Part shown: in pieces, positions 46,439 through 55,938 of the stretch
Numbering within the stretch: the first letter of the stretch is position 1
How the letters are laid out: every line of letters begins with the position of its first letter
Origin: Ignisphaera sp.
GTDB taxonomy: Archaea; Thermoproteota; Thermoprotei_A; Sulfolobales; Ignisphaeraceae
Direction: 5' to 3'
Assembly (NCBI GenBank): GCA_038735125.1
Contig: JAVYNU010000004.1
Coordinates: 62,001 to 126,000 of the forward strand
DNA length: 64,000 nucleotides
Translations under genes and position numbers: made by a program
The notes under the pieces: model-generated
What the model saw: only the letters and a program-made list of their open reading frames with translations
The model's database searches: none
Told to the model about the DNA's origin: nothing

Positions 46439-47773
46439 GTGCTGGCGATTTATATGTTAAGAATGCCCATAGTTTTTGTAGCTCCTGAAACAACCCCTGG
46501 AAGCTATACTGGTGCATTGGGTGGGCCTCCACTTATAAAAGAGTGGATTGAAAAAGAAAAAAGTAAGATCTTGTATAAGCTTTATTCGTCCCTTCCCCAT
46601 ATAGACTTTGTGCATTATACAGTTACCACAGTTGAGGAGGCTAGGAAAGTTGTTGAGATTGAAAAAGGGTCTATAGGTTTTGTTGTTATCTTATTGCATA
46701 CATGGTCTAGGGGTGCCACAAGGGTTTTTATAGAAAGTGGAAAACCAGTAATACTTATTGCTGAAAGCTATGGTGGTGGAGGGGAATTTCTAATTGAATT
46801 TGGGAGGGCGTTAAGCGAGGGTAGAAGAGTTGTAGGAGTCTCTATAAGGGATTTAGCCGATGATATAGTGGTTGATAAGGTGAGGCTTCTAGAGACTTTG
46901 TATAGACTTGCAAGCACTAAGATAATTTTCATATTGGCTGATGGTCAAAAATTTGAATATATTAGAAGGGTTTTAAAAGAGTCTTTCAATATAGAAGCAA
47001 TATACCTAGATGGAAGAGAATTTGCAGAGAAATATTACAAGGTAGTTGATGAGAATGAGGCTCGTAAGTGGGCTAATGAGTGGATCTCAAATGCCTCTAA
47101 GGTTTTTGAAGATCACCTTGAGGATATATTGAAAGCCGCCAAACTGTACCTAGCCATGAAGAAGGCTCTGCAAGACTATAATGCCATCGCCATAGCTGTT
47201 GATTGTATAAACCTCTTCGATAAGAAGGTGTTAGATGCGTGGCCATGCCTTGGATTCATGCAACTTTGGCTAGACGGATATGTTCCTGTTTGTGAAGCTG
47301 ACCCCCATTCAGCAATAGCACTTCTTATAGGGTGGTATCTTGCCGGTAGACCTGGGTTTGTATCAGATCCTGTGATAGATTATACTAAGAACGAGATCAT
47401 ATACTACCATTGCTATAGCCCTATAAATCCATTTGGAGGAAACAAGAAGGTTCCATACATCATAACACCAGCTCACTTAGGATTAAAAAGGGCATCAATA
47501 TACGTAGAGCTTCCAGTAGATGAGGAAATAATAGCTGTGCAGATATGGCCCGAACAAAAAACCATTGCAATTCATAGAGGTAAGGCTATAGGCAACGAAT
47601 ATGGGATACATGCATGCGCTACAAAACTTGTTGCAAAGGTGAATGCCAAGGTTCTTGCAAGAAATTGGAGGTGGAGCTGGCATAGAGTGGTATTCTATGG
47701 CAATCTAGCAGAGAATCTAAAGGATTTCGCAACTTTGATAGGATTTCATGTCCGTGAAGAGGATGTGGAATAG
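46439..47773 (+). CDS. L-fucose/L-arabinose isomerase-like protein
   Basis: About 444 residues with the fold of the fucose/arabinose isomerase family. The first domain is Rossmann-like (PIVFVAPETTPGSYTG, GFVVILLHTWSRGATR). The later part has IAIAVDCINLF, PCLGFMQLWLDGYVPVCEAD (likely metal-binding Glu/Asp), IGWYLAGRPGFVSDPVIDY and YYHCYSPINPFG. Relatives interconvert aldoses and ketoses. Start is uncertain: GTG at 46439, near the predicted transcript start given ATTTAAAA at 46412-46419, or ATT at 46448, six bases after AGGTG, or ATG at 46454. Confidence 0.7.
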   Translation: MLAIYMLRMPIVFVAPETTPGSYTGALGGPPLIKEWIEKEKSKILYKLYSSLPHIDFVHYTVTTVEEARKVVEIEKGSIGFVVILLHTWSRGATRVFIESGKPVILIAESYGGGGEFLIEFGRALSEGRRVVGVSIRDLADDIVVDKVRLLETLYRLASTKIIFILADGQKFEYIRRVLKESFNIEAIYLDGREFAEKYYKVVDENEARKWANEWISNASKVFEDHLEDILKAAKLYLAMKKALQDYNAIAIAVDCINLFDKKVLDAWPCLGFMQLWLDGYVPVCEADPHSAIALLIGWYLAGRPGFVSDPVIDYTKNEIIYYHCYSPINPFGGNKKVPYIITPAHLGLKRASIYVELPVDEEIIAVQIWPEQKTIAIHRGKAIGNEYGIHACATKLVAKVNAKVLARNWRWSWHRVVFYGNLAENLKDFATLIGFHVREEDVE

Positions 47774-47789
47774 TTTAGCATTGAAATAA

Positions 47790-47806
47790 ACCAAATTTTT
47801 ATTAAT
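47790..47806 (+). terminator. T-rich terminator after the isomerase-like gene
   Basis: The short space between two convergent stop codons contains CCAAATTTTTATTAATTA, a T-run typical of archaeal termination. Confidence 0.4.
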
Positions 47807-49083
47807 TACTGTGCCTGTTCTACAAATGGGATTATGTAGGGACCTTCTGGAATAGCAATTATCTTCTCACATGGAGTTAATCTACATGCAATTTCCATAG
47901 CCTCTTCAGGTGCTGATGATGGTATAAGATTCATTTCTTCTAATACACTATGACTAATGTTTCTTGTTACAACAATAACTTTATTCTTTAGAAGAACTTG
48001 TACTAGTTTCTGAACCTCCCACTGATCTCTTAAAGGCTCGTTCCTCTCTATATATTCTAAAATCTTTTGTGGATCTTTACTTACAGAAGCTAAGTCCCTG
48101 AAATGTTCATGACCAACACCATCTACACATTCTGATAACATTATTATAACGCCTCCTCTTTTTGTGACTCTAGATGCTGTCACCATACCCTTTACAGCTT
48201 GGTATAGATCTCTATCTAGAGGATAACCACCATTTGTAACTATAGTTAAATCTGCTTCAAATGGAGCTTCAATTTTAACATATTTATCAAGTTCTTTAAC
48301 ACCGTATTCATGCGCTTTAAATGGATCTCCTGCAACAACATCAAATACCCTCTTTTCTTTATCTAGAAGGACGTGAACAATAAACTTATAGCTTCTAACA
48401 CGTTTTGCAGCATCAATCATATCTTCGTGAACCGGATTCCCATCTAAATATCCATAATCTGCTTTCGGGTGGCTCAACATCTTATATCCATGATTTTGAT
48501 AAACAGTTTTTGTTGCTGAGACACCAGGTAAAATAAGTTTCCTACCACCACTATACCCAGCAAAGAAGTGGGGCTCTATAAGACCTATACCAATAGTTAA
48601 ATCTGATTCAACAACATCTTTATTAACCAGCACATCAGTTCCATAAACAGTTTTTCCAAGGTAAACCATATGTTCTTCATCATCGGAATTGTGACTATAT
48701 ACATTGAACTCCTTTGCAATAACCTCGCCAACCAACTCTATTATCTCATCTCTTCTATGTGGTTTATGAAGGCCTGTAGCAACAATTATATTAATGCTAT
48801 CCCTTCTAATCCCCACCTCATCCAAAACCTTTAGAATCTGTTCTAGCAATAACCTATTTGGCGTTGCCCTAGTCTTATCTGTTATCAATATTGTTACCAG
48901 CCTAGACCTTAATGCTAGAACTCTAAGTGGTGAAGAATCTACAGGATTCTCTAATCTATTTCTAATTATCCTCCTTACCTCTTCTTCATTCAAACCTCTA
49001 GGAGCTTTGGAATATAAAACATGTGTTTTATGCGGTAAGTCAATCTCTATATATTTTCTACCATACGGAAAAAACACTTTCAT
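47806..49083 (-). CDS. larA: Nickel-dependent lactate racemase family protein LarA
   Basis: 425 residues, LarA/DUF2088. LarA interconverts L- and D-lactate using a nickel-pincer nucleotide bound to a lysine. Residues matching the L. plantarum enzyme are all present at a near-constant offset: H106 (in VATGLHKPH), H172 (EPHFFAGYSGG), K182 (RKLILPG, the cofactor lysine) and H198 (YQNHGYKML). Other family members racemise different 2-hydroxyacids. It is the last gene of etfB-etfA-glcD-larA, 6 bp after glcD, which supports lactate as substrate. The cofactor genes larB, larC and larE are not in this window. Confidence 0.88.
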   Translation of the reverse strand: MKVFFPYGRKYIEIDLPHKTHVLYSKAPRGLNEEEVRRIIRNRLENPVDSSPLRVLALRSRLVTILITDKTRATPNRLLLEQILKVLDEVGIRRDSINIIVATGLHKPHRRDEIIELVGEVIAKEFNVYSHNSDDEEHMVYLGKTVYGTDVLVNKDVVESDLTIGIGLIEPHFFAGYSGGRKLILPGVSATKTVYQNHGYKMLSHPKADYGYLDGNPVHEDMIDAAKRVRSYKFIVHVLLDKEKRVFDVVAGDPFKAHEYGVKELDKYVKIEAPFEADLTIVTNGGYPLDRDLYQAVKGMVTASRVTKRGGVIIMLSECVDGVGHEHFRDLASVSKDPQKILEYIERNEPLRDQWEVQKLVQVLLKNKVIVVTRNISHSVLEEMNLIPSSAPEEAMEIACRLTPCEKIIAIPEGPYIIPFVEQAQ

Positions 49084-49089
49084 AAAAAT

Positions 49090-50490
49090 TCACTCAGGCA
49101 AAACCTTGTCTGGATTGAGGATATTATTTGGATCTAATAAATTCTTTATGCTTCTCATAGTCTCTATCCATATATCTCCAAGTATCTTTCTAACATACTT
49201 TCTCCTAATGTGTCCTATGCCATGCTCACCTGTTATAGTTCCTCCAAGAAGCAACGCTGCATCGTAAATTTCATCAACTATTCTCTCTAACAATTCTTTG
49301 CTAAATCCATTATATCTCATTACATGGACATGTATATTGCCATCACCTATATGTCCATACATTGGAAGCCAAATGCCATACCTCTTTTCAATGTCTATAA
49401 CGTTTTCAACAAATCTATCTATAACCCCTATAGGAACAGTTGTGTCTAGTATATCAAATGTCTCATCTTTTAGCGATGAGAATATCTCGCTTCTAATCTT
49501 TAGTAGGTTCTTTTGCTCATCATCTCTTTGTGCAACAAAAGGCTCTGAAGCCCCCTCTTCTCTTATAAGTTTATCTATATTTTCTATCTCTACGTAAAGC
49601 ATATCCTCTAAAGCCTCCGCCAATATAATCATTAAAAAGTAGTCGCCCTCTTTGACGGGCCAAGCAGTACCTAAATACCTTGCCGAAGTTTCTATAACTC
49701 TTCTATCAAAATATTCAAGAGCTAACGGTGTTATCCCCTCAAACAACATCCTTTTAGCTGCTCTAAAAGCCTCTACCCTACTCCTAAATGGTATAACAAT
49801 TGTGGCTGTGTAATGCCACTTTGGATAGAGTCTTAGATAAGCCCTTGTAATTATCCCTAAAATACCTTCAGAGCCTATGAAAAGATGTGCTAGGTTATAG
49901 CCCATGTTATTCTTAATTGTCTTTCCACCTAGTCTAAGAATAGCTCCATTGGGGAGCACAACTTCTAATCCAAGAACATAGCTTCTCATAACACCTGTTC
50001 TCACAGCTCTTGAACCACCTGCATTGCAAGCTATTAGACCCCCTATGCTAGCACCTTCATCACCTGGGTGAGCAGGAAACATAAGATTGTATTTTTCTGC
50101 CTCTTCAATTAATTTTCCAAGTGTTACCCCAGCCTCTGCATCTGCGACCATGTTCTCAACATCTATAACAAGTCTATCCATTCTCTCAAGAGATAACACA
50201 ATACCTGGTTTTGTGGGTATTGCTCCACCTACGAGTCCTGTTCCTCCACCTCTAACATAGATAGGAACTTTATATCTATTAGCTATTTTTACAATTTCGG
50301 AAACCTCATCTGCAGTACTAGGCTTAACAACTACAACATCTCTGATAGGTTCTGGTCTAACACCATATGCTGTTTCATCATATAAATACCTTTCAATTGC
50401 CTTAGCTTCTGTAACAACCCATTGAGATCCCACAACACTTTTTAAGTCTTGAACAACAGAATTAAAGTCCTTAAGCAACTGTTTCACCAC
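49090..50490 (-). CDS. FAD-linked D-lactate/glycolate dehydrogenase (GlcD family)
   Basis: 466 residues, VAO-type flavoprotein. FAD-binding PCMH domain: VPIYVRGGGTGLVGGAIPTK (about 75-94), HPGDEGASIGGLIACNAGGS (about 136-155). C-terminal FAD-oxidase domain with YGHIGDGNIHVHV and TGEHGIGHIRRKYV. It oxidises D-2-hydroxyacids. Its start overlaps etfA by 20 bp; with Etf it resembles the catalytic subunit of D-lactate dehydrogenase/Etf complexes. No cysteine-rich CCG domain is attached. Confidence 0.9.
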   Translation of the reverse strand: MVKQLLKDFNSVVQDLKSVVGSQWVVTEAKAIERYLYDETAYGVRPEPIRDVVVVKPSTADEVSEIVKIANRYKVPIYVRGGGTGLVGGAIPTKPGIVLSLERMDRLVIDVENMVADAEAGVTLGKLIEEAEKYNLMFPAHPGDEGASIGGLIACNAGGSRAVRTGVMRSYVLGLEVVLPNGAILRLGGKTIKNNMGYNLAHLFIGSEGILGIITRAYLRLYPKWHYTATIVIPFRSRVEAFRAAKRMLFEGITPLALEYFDRRVIETSARYLGTAWPVKEGDYFLMIILAEALEDMLYVEIENIDKLIREEGASEPFVAQRDDEQKNLLKIRSEIFSSLKDETFDILDTTVPIGVIDRFVENVIDIEKRYGIWLPMYGHIGDGNIHVHVMRYNGFSKELLERIVDEIYDAALLLGGTITGEHGIGHIRRKYVRKILGDIWIETMRSIKNLLDPNNILNPDKVLPE

Positions 50491-51490
50491 TTCTCAATTT
50501 CTTCAATACATTTAAAAGGTTTTGAGCAATATAGTAGATATCCCCCACGACAAATAAATCGCTATACTTTGCTATTGGAGCGCTTGCATCAATATTTACA
50601 GCTATAACATATTTAGAATCTTTCATACCTGCTATATGTTGAGGGGCTCCAGAAATTCCAAATGCTATATAGATTTTTGGCTTTACAATATTTCCACTAA
50701 AACCAACCTGCCTATCTCTCTCCATCCAACCAGTATCAACTAATGGTTTACTGCATGCAAGTTGCGCATTAAGCTCTTTAGCTAAATCCTCAAAAAGCTT
50801 TATATCTTCCTTACTCTTAACACCTCTTCCAATAGAGACTATGATTTCTGCTTCCGATAGTCTAACCCTTTTCTCTTTAGCTATACCCAAAACCTTAATC
50901 TTATTAGAGGTCTCAAAACATCCTTCAGATTTATCTAAAGATCTTTTCTCAATCTCGCCACCTTTACTACTATCAGCTTTTGGAATTTGAAAAACGCCAG
51001 GTCTTATAGTTGCTATCACAGGATTTGTCAATGTCTTGATATGCGCAATTATATTGCCTGTAAAAGCTGGTCTAACCTGAACAATGTCATTTGAATCATC
51101 AACATATATATCAAGACAGTCAGCTGTAATACCGGTTCTAATATTAGCTGCAACTCTAGGCGCCAAGCTTCTCCCCCATGGCGTTGCAGGAAATAGGACG
51201 AGCTTTGGTTTTATATAGTTGATAGCGTCGATAATTATGCATTTATGTATCAAAGGATTGGATATCTCATTTTCATTAACTTGGTACAAAAGAACTTTGT
51301 CTGCTCCATACATTATCAAATCTTTTGCATATTTCTCAGCATCATCAGATTTAGAGACTATTGCCACTGCTGAGACAGCTCCACCAAGTTTTGAAACAAC
51401 TTCTCTAGCTTTTCCAAGTAACTCAAAAGAGGTTTTTGAGATGCCTCTACCATAGTTTTCAGCATATATAAGCACTCCTTTCCATGACAT
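50471..51490 (-). CDS. etfA: Electron transfer flavoprotein alpha subunit
   Basis: 339 residues. The FAD-binding C-terminal half is clear: IIVSIGRGVKSKEDIKLFED, DTGWMERDRQVGFSGNIVKP, KIYIAFGISGAPQHIAGM and VIAVNIDASAPIAKYSDLFV. No N-terminal ferredoxin domain is fused, unlike some lactate-dehydrogenase Etf alpha subunits. It would pass electrons from the GlcD-type dehydrogenase to an acceptor. It overlaps etfB by 1 bp and glcD by 20 bp. Confidence 0.93.
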   Translation of the reverse strand: MSWKGVLIYAENYGRGISKTSFELLGKAREVVSKLGGAVSAVAIVSKSDDAEKYAKDLIMYGADKVLLYQVNENEISNPLIHKCIIIDAINYIKPKLVLFPATPWGRSLAPRVAANIRTGITADCLDIYVDDSNDIVQVRPAFTGNIIAHIKTLTNPVIATIRPGVFQIPKADSSKGGEIEKRSLDKSEGCFETSNKIKVLGIAKEKRVRLSEAEIIVSIGRGVKSKEDIKLFEDLAKELNAQLACSKPLVDTGWMERDRQVGFSGNIVKPKIYIAFGISGAPQHIAGMKDSKYVIAVNIDASAPIAKYSDLFVVGDIYYIAQNLLNVLKKLRSGETVA

Positions 51491-52296
51491 TAGATAACAC
51501 CTAATTCTCTCAAAGTCTTGATTATTGCGGTTATACCCTCATCTCCTTTAACTATCCTCGGATTCCTGCCTTTTTCAAGAGCATAATAAGCTTTCACAAC
51601 TCTTGTTGGAGAACCTGAAAGCCCAAATCTATTTACATCAGCTACATCGTTTAAATGGTCAGCACTCCACACTTCTATCTTTGCCTTTCTAGCTTTCAAA
51701 ACATCGCTTAATCTAGGTATTGATGGCTCTATAAATTCTCCAAGAAATGTAATCGGACGAGATAATGCTATTAAAGCTGGTAACCCAACCTCAACCCTAT
51801 AATAAGCATCGCCAAAATCAGACTCAACAACAATTCTATCATTTTTAACATCTACTATACCAGTAACAAAAGATATGTGTGGAATACCTAGAAACTCTGC
51901 AACCTCTGGCCCAACATGAGCTGTATCTCCATCAACAGACTTCTCACCACATAGAATAATGTTAAAAAATCCAAGCTTTCTAATAGCAGAGGCAAGCGCA
52001 TATGATGTAGCTAAAGTATCTGCACCAGCAAATCTTCTGTCACTTAACAAAATAGCTCTATCAACACCCCTTGCAATAGCATCTCGAAGAGCTGTTTCCG
52101 CATGAGGAGGAGCCATAGAGATGGATGTTATGGTACCTCCAAACATCTTCTTAATTCTTTTAGCAACCTCTATAGCATATAAATCAAATGGATTTATTTC
52201 TAATGTTGTTGACGCTCTATCAACAGCGCCTCTCTCAACATCAAATTTAGCTTTTGTGATATCTGGAGTAGGCTTGATCAGCACTATAATATTCAT
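51490..52296 (-). CDS. etfB: Electron transfer flavoprotein beta subunit
   Basis: 268 residues. IIVLIKPTPDITKAKFDVERG, then FDLYAIEVAKRIK and CGEKSVDGDTAHVGPEVAEF followed by LGIPHISFV. The SVDGDTAHVGPE nucleotide-binding stretch resembles that of electron-bifurcating Etfs, which bind a second FAD, more than the AMP-binding form; this should be tested structurally. First gene of the lactate operon; a candidate TATA (AATTTATTAA, about 52334-52343) lies upstream. Confidence 0.92.
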   Translation of the reverse strand: MNIIVLIKPTPDITKAKFDVERGAVDRASTTLEINPFDLYAIEVAKRIKKMFGGTITSISMAPPHAETALRDAIARGVDRAILLSDRRFAGADTLATSYALASAIRKLGFFNIILCGEKSVDGDTAHVGPEVAEFLGIPHISFVTGIVDVKNDRIVVESDFGDAYYRVEVGLPALIALSRPITFLGEFIEPSIPRLSDVLKARKAKIEVWSADHLNDVADVNRFGLSGSPTRVVKAYYALEKGRNPRIVKGDEGITAIIKTLRELGVI

Positions 52297-52824: not shown

Positions 52825-55800
52825 TTGAATTTAGCTGATGCTGAGAGAAGGGTTTTTGATTTAATAGCGTCCTCTATTCTAAGAGTTGTAGATGTAAGTA
52901 AATGGGTTTATGGCGATAGAGAAATACAATTGCCATTCTATATCGAGACAGTACCTAGTAGAATTCATGTGTTTAAAACAAAGATTGAAGTACCTCAAAC
53001 AAGGTTTAGCTGGTTTATGAAGTTTGTTATAAGTGGAAATGCTAGGGTTAGAGTTGATGGAGAGAGCTATGCAGGGATTGATGAGGCTCACACATACATT
53101 TCACTACTTCCTGGCACTCATGATATAGAGTTGATAGACTCTCCAAGAACTCTTTTTGGCTTACATGGATGGTCATTAACATTTCAAAAGGCGTTTCTAG
53201 TTGAAGTTGCTTGGGATGTTATGAAAACTGGGCTCAGGATTCTTGAGCTAATAAGACTTATTGAAAGCCTGCCTCAGAATAGCAATGTTAGAGAAAGTCT
53301 CCAAAATCTCTTATTCAATATAACATCTCTTCTAAGGCTAAACCCATCCTTAAGACAAATAACAATAGCTCTATCTTTGCTATACGAATCTAGTTTACAA
53401 CCAATATATTTTAGAAGAAATGATTTGAGGCAGCCCTACGGAGATTATGCATGGCTTTCTAATGTATATGGAATAGGGGTTTTGAAGGGGTATCTAAATG
53501 ATTTACCAGAGCAAAATATAGAGAAGGTTCTCGAGGAAGTTAATAGAATTAATAGTGAGTTAGAGAAGGGATTAGATGATCTCAGAAAAAGATACCCAAA
53601 AATCGGAACAATTCACATTATGGGTCATAGCCACATCGACGCTGCTTGGCTATGGCCTAGAAATGAAACTGTCGAGAAGGTTTTAAGAACATTCTCAACT
53701 ATAGTAAGGCTCGCAAACGAATATGAATTTAGCTTCGTTCAGAGCTCTGCTCAATACTATAAATGGGTTGAGGAAATAGATAGAGGGTTGTTTGAAAAGA
53801 TAAAAAGCTTAGTTAATAGTGGTAAATGGGTTATTGTCGGGGGTATGTGGATAGAGAGCGACACAAATCTAATTGATGGAGAGTCGCTCGCAAGACAGTT
53901 TCTATATGGTCAACGATATTTCTTAGAAAGGTTTGGTAGAATAGCTAAAATTGGTTGGATACCAGACAGCTTTGGGTTTTCAGGTAATCTCCCACAGATT
54001 ATGAGGAAGAGTGGTATAGAGGTTTTCATTACACATAAAGTTATGTGGAACGACACAAACGAGTTTCCCTACCATTCATTCATATGGAGAGGTATTGATG
54101 GAACAGAGATACTTGTACAAATACTCATAACAAGCTACAATGAGACTATGACGCCCACATCAATTTACAGATACTGGGAAAGGTATAAACAGAAAGATAC
54201 AATACCATTTACAGTGTATTCCTATGGATATGGAGATGGTGGTGGTGGGCCAACAAGAGAGATGATGGAATATATAGAGCTCGTTAATAAGCTTCCCTAT
54301 ATACCATTTGTTAAACATTTCAATGAGAGAGAGTACGTAGAGAATGTAAAGAAGACCAAGGATTTAATGCCTATTTGGAGTGGCGAACTTTATGTAGAGA
54401 TTCACAGAGGTACATATACAACAAACATAGCTGTTAAAAACGCTATGGCTGAAGCTGAAAAGGCGTTAAAAGAAGCTGAAACACTATCAACTATAGCAAA
54501 TATACTTTCTGGCCACCACATTAATAAAAGAATGGATTCTCTATGGCATCTCCTTCTATTTAATCAATTCCACGACATAATACCTGGCTCATCAATAAAA
54601 GAGGTTTATGATGATGCTGTGACTGATTTGAGAAAAGTAGTCGAAGAGTCGTATACTATATCATATAATGCTATAGGAAGTGTTATAGGCAAAAATAAGA
54701 AGGGAAAGGTTCTTGCAATAGCTAGTGTAGTTCCATGGAAATTTAGATCCGTTATTAAGATACCAAAGGGCTTTGGAATACCAACTAATGTGGAATGCCA
54801 AGAAGATGGAGATGGATATTACCTACTTGTCGAAACCATGCCGATGGGCATCAAATCTCATCGACTTGAAGAAAACATTTGTAGAAGTGGAGATGGCGCT
54901 AGGGTTTTTGAGGCAAATGGAATATATCTAGAAAATGAAGCATTAATTATTAAAATTAATGAAAAAGGTGATATAGAATCTATTAAAATTAAAGAAGGAG
55001 ATATCGAGCTATTGAGAGAGCCAGCAAAGCTTGTTGTACATATTGACAAACCTGGAAGATTCGATGCTTGGGACGTTACAAGCGACTTTCTGCAACATGG
55101 AATCGAAATGAATATAGTTGAAAAACCAAAGATTGTGCTCAAAGGACCGTTAAAAGCTTGTGTAGAAGTTTCAAAGACTTTCGAAAACTCTAAGATAAGA
55201 CAAAGAATATGTTTATATAAAGGACTTCCATACATAGTAATCGAAAATGATGTTAACTGGAGAGATAAGGGTGTTATGGTTAAACATTGGTTTAAAACAG
55301 TTGCAAAAGCCTTGAAGGCTGACTACGATATTCCATTTGGTGTTGTAGAGAGATCAACAAAAATGGAGTCGAACCGGGAGAAAGCAAAATTCGAAGTACC
55401 GGCTGTTAGATGGGCTGATATATCAGATGGTGAAAAAGGACTTGCCATAATAGCTCCATCAAGACATGGATATTCTGCTACAGGTAGCGACATAGCTTTA
55501 ACTATAATTAGATCACCTCTATTTCCAAATCCATGGAGTGATATAGGAGACTACAACATAACATACTACATATATCCGCATAGAGGGGATTACCAACAGG
55601 CTGAGGTGCCTAAAATAGTCCAGGAAGTTATGTTTAGACCTTTGGCTAGAATCATCGATGGAGAAGAAACTGAGGAGAGCATACTATCTATAGACCCTCC
55701 AAAAGCAATTATATCAGCATTTAAACCTGCATATGATGGAAACGGGTATATACTAAGACTTTACAATCCATATAGAGACGAGGTAAAGGTAAAAATAAAC

Positions 55801-55938
55801 CTGAGGTTCAAGGCACTTCAAATTACTGAAACAGATTTAGTAGAGCTTAGCAATCTAAATGAGCTAGGCAAGGACATCCCTGAGATAGAATGTAGGATAA
55901 AGCCATTCGAAATAAAGACACTTAGAATAATACAATGA
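52825..55938 (+). CDS. Alpha-mannosidase, GH38
   Basis: 1037 residues, a standard size for class II alpha-mannosidases. N-terminal beta domain (about 1-250), then the zinc-binding catalytic domain with HIMGHSHIDAAWLWPRNETV (about 263-282), the nucleophile Asp in GWIPDSFGFSGNLPQI (about 378-393) and THKVMWNDTN. After that comes a helical bundle (HHINKRMDSLWHLLLFNQFHD) and C-terminal beta domains. It removes terminal alpha-mannose, from either cytoplasmic glycans or imported sugars; no signal peptide is seen. TTG start after GGTGA. An MFS gene follows 65 bp downstream. Confidence 0.93.
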   Translation: MNLADAERRVFDLIASSILRVVDVSKWVYGDREIQLPFYIETVPSRIHVFKTKIEVPQTRFSWFMKFVISGNARVRVDGESYAGIDEAHTYISLLPGTHDIELIDSPRTLFGLHGWSLTFQKAFLVEVAWDVMKTGLRILELIRLIESLPQNSNVRESLQNLLFNITSLLRLNPSLRQITIALSLLYESSLQPIYFRRNDLRQPYGDYAWLSNVYGIGVLKGYLNDLPEQNIEKVLEEVNRINSELEKGLDDLRKRYPKIGTIHIMGHSHIDAAWLWPRNETVEKVLRTFSTIVRLANEYEFSFVQSSAQYYKWVEEIDRGLFEKIKSLVNSGKWVIVGGMWIESDTNLIDGESLARQFLYGQRYFLERFGRIAKIGWIPDSFGFSGNLPQIMRKSGIEVFITHKVMWNDTNEFPYHSFIWRGIDGTEILVQILITSYNETMTPTSIYRYWERYKQKDTIPFTVYSYGYGDGGGGPTREMMEYIELVNKLPYIPFVKHFNEREYVENVKKTKDLMPIWSGELYVEIHRGTYTTNIAVKNAMAEAEKALKEAETLSTIANILSGHHINKRMDSLWHLLLFNQFHDIIPGSSIKEVYDDAVTDLRKVVEESYTISYNAIGSVIGKNKKGKVLAIASVVPWKFRSVIKIPKGFGIPTNVECQEDGDGYYLLVETMPMGIKSHRLEENICRSGDGARVFEANGIYLENEALIIKINEKGDIESIKIKEGDIELLREPAKLVVHIDKPGRFDAWDVTSDFLQHGIEMNIVEKPKIVLKGPLKACVEVSKTFENSKIRQRICLYKGLPYIVIENDVNWRDKGVMVKHWFKTVAKALKADYDIPFGVVERSTKMESNREKAKFEVPAVRWADISDGEKGLAIIAPSRHGYSATGSDIALTIIRSPLFPNPWSDIGDYNITYYIYPHRGDYQQAEVPKIVQEVMFRPLARIIDGEETEESILSIDPPKAIISAFKPAYDGNGYILRLYNPYRDEVKVKINLRFKALQITETDLVELSNLNELGKDIPEIECRIKPFEIKTLRIIQ

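Follow-up and report, generated by a model that had tools for sequence, protein, structure and literature searches.

The etfB-etfA-glcD-larA operon

A four-gene operon, etfB-etfA-glcD-larA, lies on the minus strand (52296-47806) of a 64,000-nucleotide stretch of DNA from Ignisphaera sp. (assembly GCA_038735125.1, contig JAVYNU010000004.1, positions 62,001 to 126,000), the whole of which is referred to here as the window. The genome from which the window comes belongs to the genus Ignisphaera (label G000), is 1.81 Mb in 12 contigs and 99.9% complete, and has one copy each of larA, etfA and etfB. With a probability of roughly two in three, the four genes make up an archaeal module of the Lct type, in which ferredoxin-driven, electron-confurcating lactate oxidation is joined to a racemase and fed by deoxy-sugars. 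The genes are as follows.

51490-52296, minus strand: etfB (LctB-like), 268 aa; Pfam ETF; electron-transfer flavoprotein (Etf) beta subunit with a predicted second FAD (b-FAD) and NAD+ site
50471-51490, minus strand: etfA (LctC-like), 339 aa; Pfam ETF and ETF_alpha; Etf alpha subunit without an N-terminal ferredoxin domain
49090-50490, minus strand: glcD (LctD-like), 466 aa, GTG start; Pfam FAD_binding_4 and FAD-oxidase_C; predicted FAD-dependent 2-hydroxyacid (D-lactate) dehydrogenase
47806-49083, minus strand: larA, 425 aa; Pfam Lar_N (204 bits) and LarA_C (128); nickel-pincer-nucleotide (NPN) racemase, most likely a lactate racemase

The packing described in the original prediction, which was made from the sequence of the window, was reproduced exactly: etfB and etfA overlap by 1 bp, etfA and glcD overlap by 20 bp, and a 6-bp gap separates glcD from larA. 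Judged by Pfam and NCBIfam, the family placement of all four predicted proteins is unambiguous. Among solved structures, EtfA is closest to LctC (7qh2_A, 1.4e-71) and GlcD to LctD (7qh2_C, 2.6e-83) of Acetobacterium woodii, while EtfB matches best the bifurcating EtfB of Acidaminococcus fermentans (4kpu_B), followed by LctB (7qh2_B). These matches, together with the catalytic, b-FAD and NAD+ residues that are kept, support the earlier reading of the operon as a Lct-type lactate module.

Distribution and phylogeny

The same four-gene order is present in three other Ignisphaera genomes (G004, G006 and G010), in G382, from another family of the same order, and in G373 (family f35), from outside the order, with protein identities of 55-83%. 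Its recurrence in these genomes argues that the operon is more than a chance arrangement. On a 3-kb fragment (L098), etfA-glcD-larA is seen. About 25 further Thermoproteota genomes have etfB-etfA-glcD adjacent on one strand and without an adjacent larA. No relatives of GlcD were found in viral contigs.

In a GlcD tree, in which the bacterial sampling is thin, the window's GlcD groups with other Etf-linked GlcD. The archaeal sequences whose EtfA has no ferredoxin domain form a clade (100/100) beside the domain-bearing ones and A. woodii LctD. The five larA-linked sequences also form a clade (100/100), with G382 beside G004 inside Ignisphaera. Because G382 belongs to another family, this branching suggests transfer.

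Etf genes also occur in other arrangements. At L050 and L058 (same order), etfB-etfA with the motif DGDTAQVPP lies near FixC/FixX-like and transporter-like genes, without glcD, and is a different Etf system. At L079 and L081, an EtfB-EtfA fusion of 610-646 aa is followed by FixC-like and FixX-like genes.

Linkage to aldolase, oxidoreductase and deoxy-sugar genes

The co-occurrence of larA and the lct genes with a fuculose-phosphate-type aldolase and an aldehyde:ferredoxin oxidoreductase (AFOR), which in several genomes extends to physical linkage, is new here. In the window genome, a class II aldolase and an AFOR are followed downstream on the same strand by larB-larC, and the arrangement is the same in G006. 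Among solved structures, the aldolase is nearest to fuculose-phosphate aldolases and the AFOR to aldehyde:ferredoxin oxidoreductases such as 1aor. In G373 (L046), etfB-etfA-glcD-larA-aldolase-AFOR is one operon, and G312 has aldolase-AFOR-larA. The aldolase, the AFOR and an FGGY-type kinase are found among etfBA and glcD in G168, G237 and G298. Aldolase and AFOR are adjacent in 20 of the 21 genomes checked, and rhamnulokinase follows them in G084 and G124. Downstream of rhamnulokinase and a second FGGY kinase lies larA in G008; this kinase pair is also present in the window genome, without larA. G005, which has neither larA nor lct, retains an otherwise syntenic larBC locus from which exactly the aldolase and AFOR are missing.

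Across 398 Thermoproteota genomes, and with shared ancestry uncorrected in both comparisons, larA (34 genomes) is found with a close aldolase (28 genomes) in 18 (p 3e-15), and with an EtfB of at least 50% identity (45 genomes) in 25 (p 3e-20). The original prediction gave no source of lactate or of reduced ferredoxin, and this linkage offers one.

A single locus of the window genome carries a sugar ABC transporter, a fucose-isomerase-type protein, rhamnulokinase and another class II aldolase. Near the rhamnulokinase/FGGY pair is a type III RuBisCO (L249:14677-15753, minus strand), the start of which appears truncated at the end of the locus. Within the window, one further gene of possible relevance adjoins the operon.

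46439-47773, plus strand: predicted fold of a divergent sugar ketol-isomerase, of the type of L-arabinose and L-fucose isomerases; transcribed convergently with larA

Its protein has no Pfam match and a weak SftI match in NCBIfam. Its AlphaFold2 model (pLDDT 68.9) resembles isomerases of L-arabinose and L-fucose, and on this model the protein may be a divergent sugar isomerase; a functional link to the larA operon is only possible. In G006 a homologue and larA are some 5 kb apart. Divergent from etfB is a GH38-type alpha-mannosidase gene (52825-55938, plus strand). Among open-licence papers, nothing on point was found concerning Ignisphaera lactate metabolism or an archaeal lactaldehyde-oxidizing AFOR.

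The predicted racemase and dehydrogenase and their substrate

LarA carries all of the residues named in the original prediction, these being the catalytic H106 and H172, the NPN lysine K182 and the nickel ligand H198, and has in addition the phosphate arginine R72. The substrate contacts Y294, Q295 and K298 are kept, and the pocket (F173-F174 and W355) has the Phe-Phe/Trp composition of lactate racemases. Its matches among solved structures include PDB 2yjg and 9eid. Against the NCBIfam model Ni_dep_LarA (NF033504) it scores 427.8 bits, under the equivalog cut-off of 460, although this is still its best LarA model by 63 bits. From its sequence, lactate racemase is the most likely activity of LarA rather than a certified assignment.

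This is the only LarA-family (Lar_N) gene in the genome. The cofactor genes larB, larC and larE, which the earlier reading needed elsewhere in the genome, were all found there, above cut-offs. They are not specific evidence for LarA, since several relatives have them without larA: in G003, G005, G007 and G009, of the same genus, larB/C/E are present and no Lar_N gene was found (loci L178-L180 and L183). G009 is a single-contig genome. In these four genomes nickel-pincer cofactor synthesis is without a known user. A DUF362 protein adjoins larC (L094:4532-5437, minus strand; also L176, L178 and L180), and it does so even where LarA is absent. This protein and LarA belong to one Pfam clan, and the spacing (+10, +16) of its invariant His150, Lys160 and His176 equals that of LarA His172, Lys182 and His198. 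The common clan and spacing make it a candidate nickel-pincer enzyme; comparing its profile with that of LarA showed no signal.

The residues that b-FAD, NAD+ and the oxidation of lactate require in the A. woodii lactate dehydrogenase (Ldh)-EtfAB have been set out (PMC9232219). In GlcD, the equivalents R328 and D346, the metal ligands H377, H384 and E422 and the catalytic H423 are kept, on comparison with a stretch of LctD that excludes position 37, where A. woodii Ldh has a Glu near the flavins.

The operon could instead act on another 2-hydroxyacid, for which 2-hydroxybutyrate, glycerate and branched hydroxyacids are examples; LarA would then racemize short-chain 2-hydroxyacids broadly. Promiscuity is a feature of both lactate racemases and LarAH2, the substrate of a GlcD-family enzyme is not revealed by its sequence, and the LarA score is below the lactate-racemase cut-off. 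This alternative is nonetheless unlikely given the lactate-racemase pocket of LarA, the lactate enzyme LctD as best match of GlcD, and the linkage to aldolase, AFOR and rhamnulokinase, which points to lactaldehyde. Glycolate, as the name GlcD would have it, is disfavoured, being achiral and not needing a racemase.

Bifurcation motifs of the Etf

Motif definitions were drawn from PMC9232219 and PMC12630350. The SVDGDTAHVGPE stretch that the original prediction likened to bifurcating Etfs is present in EtfB. Its b-FAD motif reads DGDTAHVGP against the usual DGDTAQVGP, with eight of the nine residues kept, including Gly123, which is invariant across 28 aligned relatives. DGDTAHVGP is common to the window genome and three close relatives (G004, G006 and G382), while most other archaeal relatives have GDTGQVGP or GDTAQVGP. 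The NAD+ motif RxFxG (as RRFAG) and the SPT anchor are kept in EtfB, and EtfA keeps the equivalent of Arg205 (in QVRPAF), the arginine at N5 of b-FAD. In the AlphaFold2 model of EtfB (pLDDT 85.5), the top five solved folds all belong to beta chains of bifurcating Etfs, behind which human and other canonical Etfs rank. The retained Gly123 is predicted to mark FAD rather than AMP, so that EtfB does not appear to be of the AMP type that would have told against the earlier reading.

These motifs bear upon a canonical shuttle, in which GlcD would pass electrons through an AMP-type Etf to quinone (by ETF-QO/FixC) or acyl-CoA with no role for ferredoxin, as in the Fusobacterium nucleatum Ldh-Etf-Bcd. 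That Etf moves electrons from Ldh to Bcd (PMC12630350), so Ldh-Etf operons can be canonical, and an EtfA without a ferredoxin domain would suit such a system. However, Gly123 is Phe in F. nucleatum, and it is kept here along with the NAD+ motif. A search of the genome for other Etf partners found no ETF-QO domain, no acyl-CoA dehydrogenase and no FixC (Sulfolobales FixC query), which leaves the shuttle without a known electron acceptor and makes it decidedly improbable.

Proposed pathway

Complex formation, the identity of the substrate, confurcation and the sugar route are proposed from what was observed directly: the order of the genes, the residues kept, what is present in and absent from the genome, and which genes are linked or occur together. 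Class II aldolases are known to form L-lactaldehyde from L-rhamnulose- or L-fuculose-1-phosphate. The most likely source of lactate would be 6-deoxyhexoses of the L-rhamnose/L-fucose type, converted by isomerase, kinase and class II aldolase to L-lactaldehyde. AFOR would oxidize this to L-lactate, yielding two reduced ferredoxins, and LarA, with its nickel-pincer cofactor from LarB, LarE and LarC, would interconvert L- and D-lactate. GlcD would then oxidize D-lactate to pyruvate, and EtfAB would carry its electrons singly to the b-FAD in EtfB. There, the lactate electrons and those of reduced ferredoxin would together reduce NAD+ by flavin-based electron confurcation. The net reaction would be lactaldehyde + 2 NAD+ to pyruvate + 2 NADH, with the ferredoxins from AFOR consumed by the Ldh-Etf.

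By textbook values, the aldehyde/acid couple lies near -580 mV and NAD+ near -320 mV. The lactate/pyruvate potential is -190 mV (PMC9232219). With a mean donor potential of about -385 mV against -320 mV for NAD+, the summed reaction would be downhill, where lactate oxidation by NAD+ alone would not.

Several points weigh against this proposal. In the b-FAD motif of EtfB, Gln127 is replaced by His, and position 139 of GlcD, a Glu near the flavins in A. woodii Ldh, is Asp. Most lct operons in the phylum are without an adjacent larA, 16 of the 34 larA genomes have no close aldolase homologue, and in the window genome itself the aldolase and AFOR are on a different contig from larA-lct. A different ketose phosphate could be the specific substrate of the aldolase, and LarA-group enzymes are promiscuous, with another short 2-hydroxyacid possible as substrate (PMC11770544). 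Finally, as the original prediction had it, EtfA lacks a fused ferredoxin domain: no start gives a protein longer than 339 aa, and the frame has 355 aa from stop to stop. The A. woodii Ldh-EtfAB cannot do without this domain, the removal of which abolishes coupling, although the domain is dispensable in CarCDE and absent from Bcd-EtfAB, which still bifurcates (PMC9232219).

Closely related archaeal EtfAs are likewise of 324-346 aa without the domain, and four more distant Thermoproteota (L071, L072, L074 and L077) have EtfA of 396-419 aa with an N-terminal ferredoxin domain. A split-off domain encoded beside the etf operon was considered and rejected, as no iron-sulphur or ferredoxin gene recurred across about 40 loci. 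It had been suggested that the acceptor may differ given the missing domain. The absence stands, but the conclusion drawn from it is weakened: since Bcd-EtfAB bifurcates without the domain, its loss need not mean another acceptor, even if the A. woodii enzyme needs it. Ferredoxin may still be the donor to EtfAB; this is the least secure step of the pathway, with ferredoxin docking as its weakest link. Because EtfA is without the domain, the operon is best classed not as a strict Lct member but as a variant that would work in the same way.

The reverse direction, in which pyruvate and NADH would give lactate and reduce ferredoxin by bifurcation in a fermentative or redox-balancing role, is the least probable alternative, the reaction being reversible but about 10-fold less active that way in A. 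woodii (PMC9232219), the linked catabolic aldolase and AFOR being such as would themselves make reduced ferredoxin, and a racemase being more useful for lactate consumption.

A more specific form of the confurcating lactate module can be put forward tentatively, at a little less than even odds: a closed ferredoxin loop in hyperthermophilic archaea, in which a lactaldehyde AFOR drives a confurcating Ldh of an archaeal branch, free of the ferredoxin domain, and LarA bridges the stereochemistry.

Significance and comparison with known systems

A survey in 2018 placed the confurcating Ldh in bacteria only and considered that it arose there (PMC6085437). This claim is open to re-examination, because operons that join GlcD to an Etf and keep the bifurcation motifs intact are widespread in Thermoproteota. 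The form without the ferredoxin domain would show whether, in a lactate enzyme, external ferredoxin has direct access to b-FAD. The aldolase/AFOR linkage proposes a physiological ferredoxin partner, a substrate for an uncharacterized AFOR, and a full, testable anaerobic route for 6-deoxyhexoses in archaea.

The F. nucleatum Ldh-Etf-Bcd shares a D-lactate dehydrogenase and an Etf with the operon described here, but its Etf is canonical (Phe for Gly123) and feeds Bcd, whereas this genome has no acyl-CoA dehydrogenase. Two Thermotogae loci (L109 and L128) have the same four gene types, with larA near etfB-etfA-glcD and EtfA (331 and 337 aa) also without the ferredoxin domain. They differ in a larA that lies upstream and is only 35-36% identical, and in a GlcD that branches outside the archaeal and A. 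woodii group.

LarA has full-length homology with the racemases of Thermoanaerobacterium thermosaccharolyticum (2yjg), Lactobacillus plantarum (6c1w) and Isosphaera pallida (9eid), and shares with them the NPN Lys and His, the two catalytic His, the Tyr-Gln-Lys and Arg contacts and the hydrophobic pocket. Unlike these, it belongs to an archaeal clade and falls just under the NCBIfam equivalog cut-off.

The closest known system is the A. woodii Lct (LctBCD, 7qh2), whose three subunits are homologous and encoded in the order found here, etfB-etfA-ldh, and with which the b-FAD, NAD+ and lactate-site residues are conserved. The differences here are that the operon is archaeal, that EtfA has no ferredoxin domain, that Gln127 is His, that no permease or regulator gene is adjacent, and that there is linkage to aldolase and AFOR in relatives. 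A lactate racemase has been described as part of the lct clusters in A. woodii and in gut Firmicutes. Bacterial lct clusters are already known to combine Etf, D-lactate dehydrogenase and racemase, and the Ignisphaera operon is an archaeal variant of this combination.

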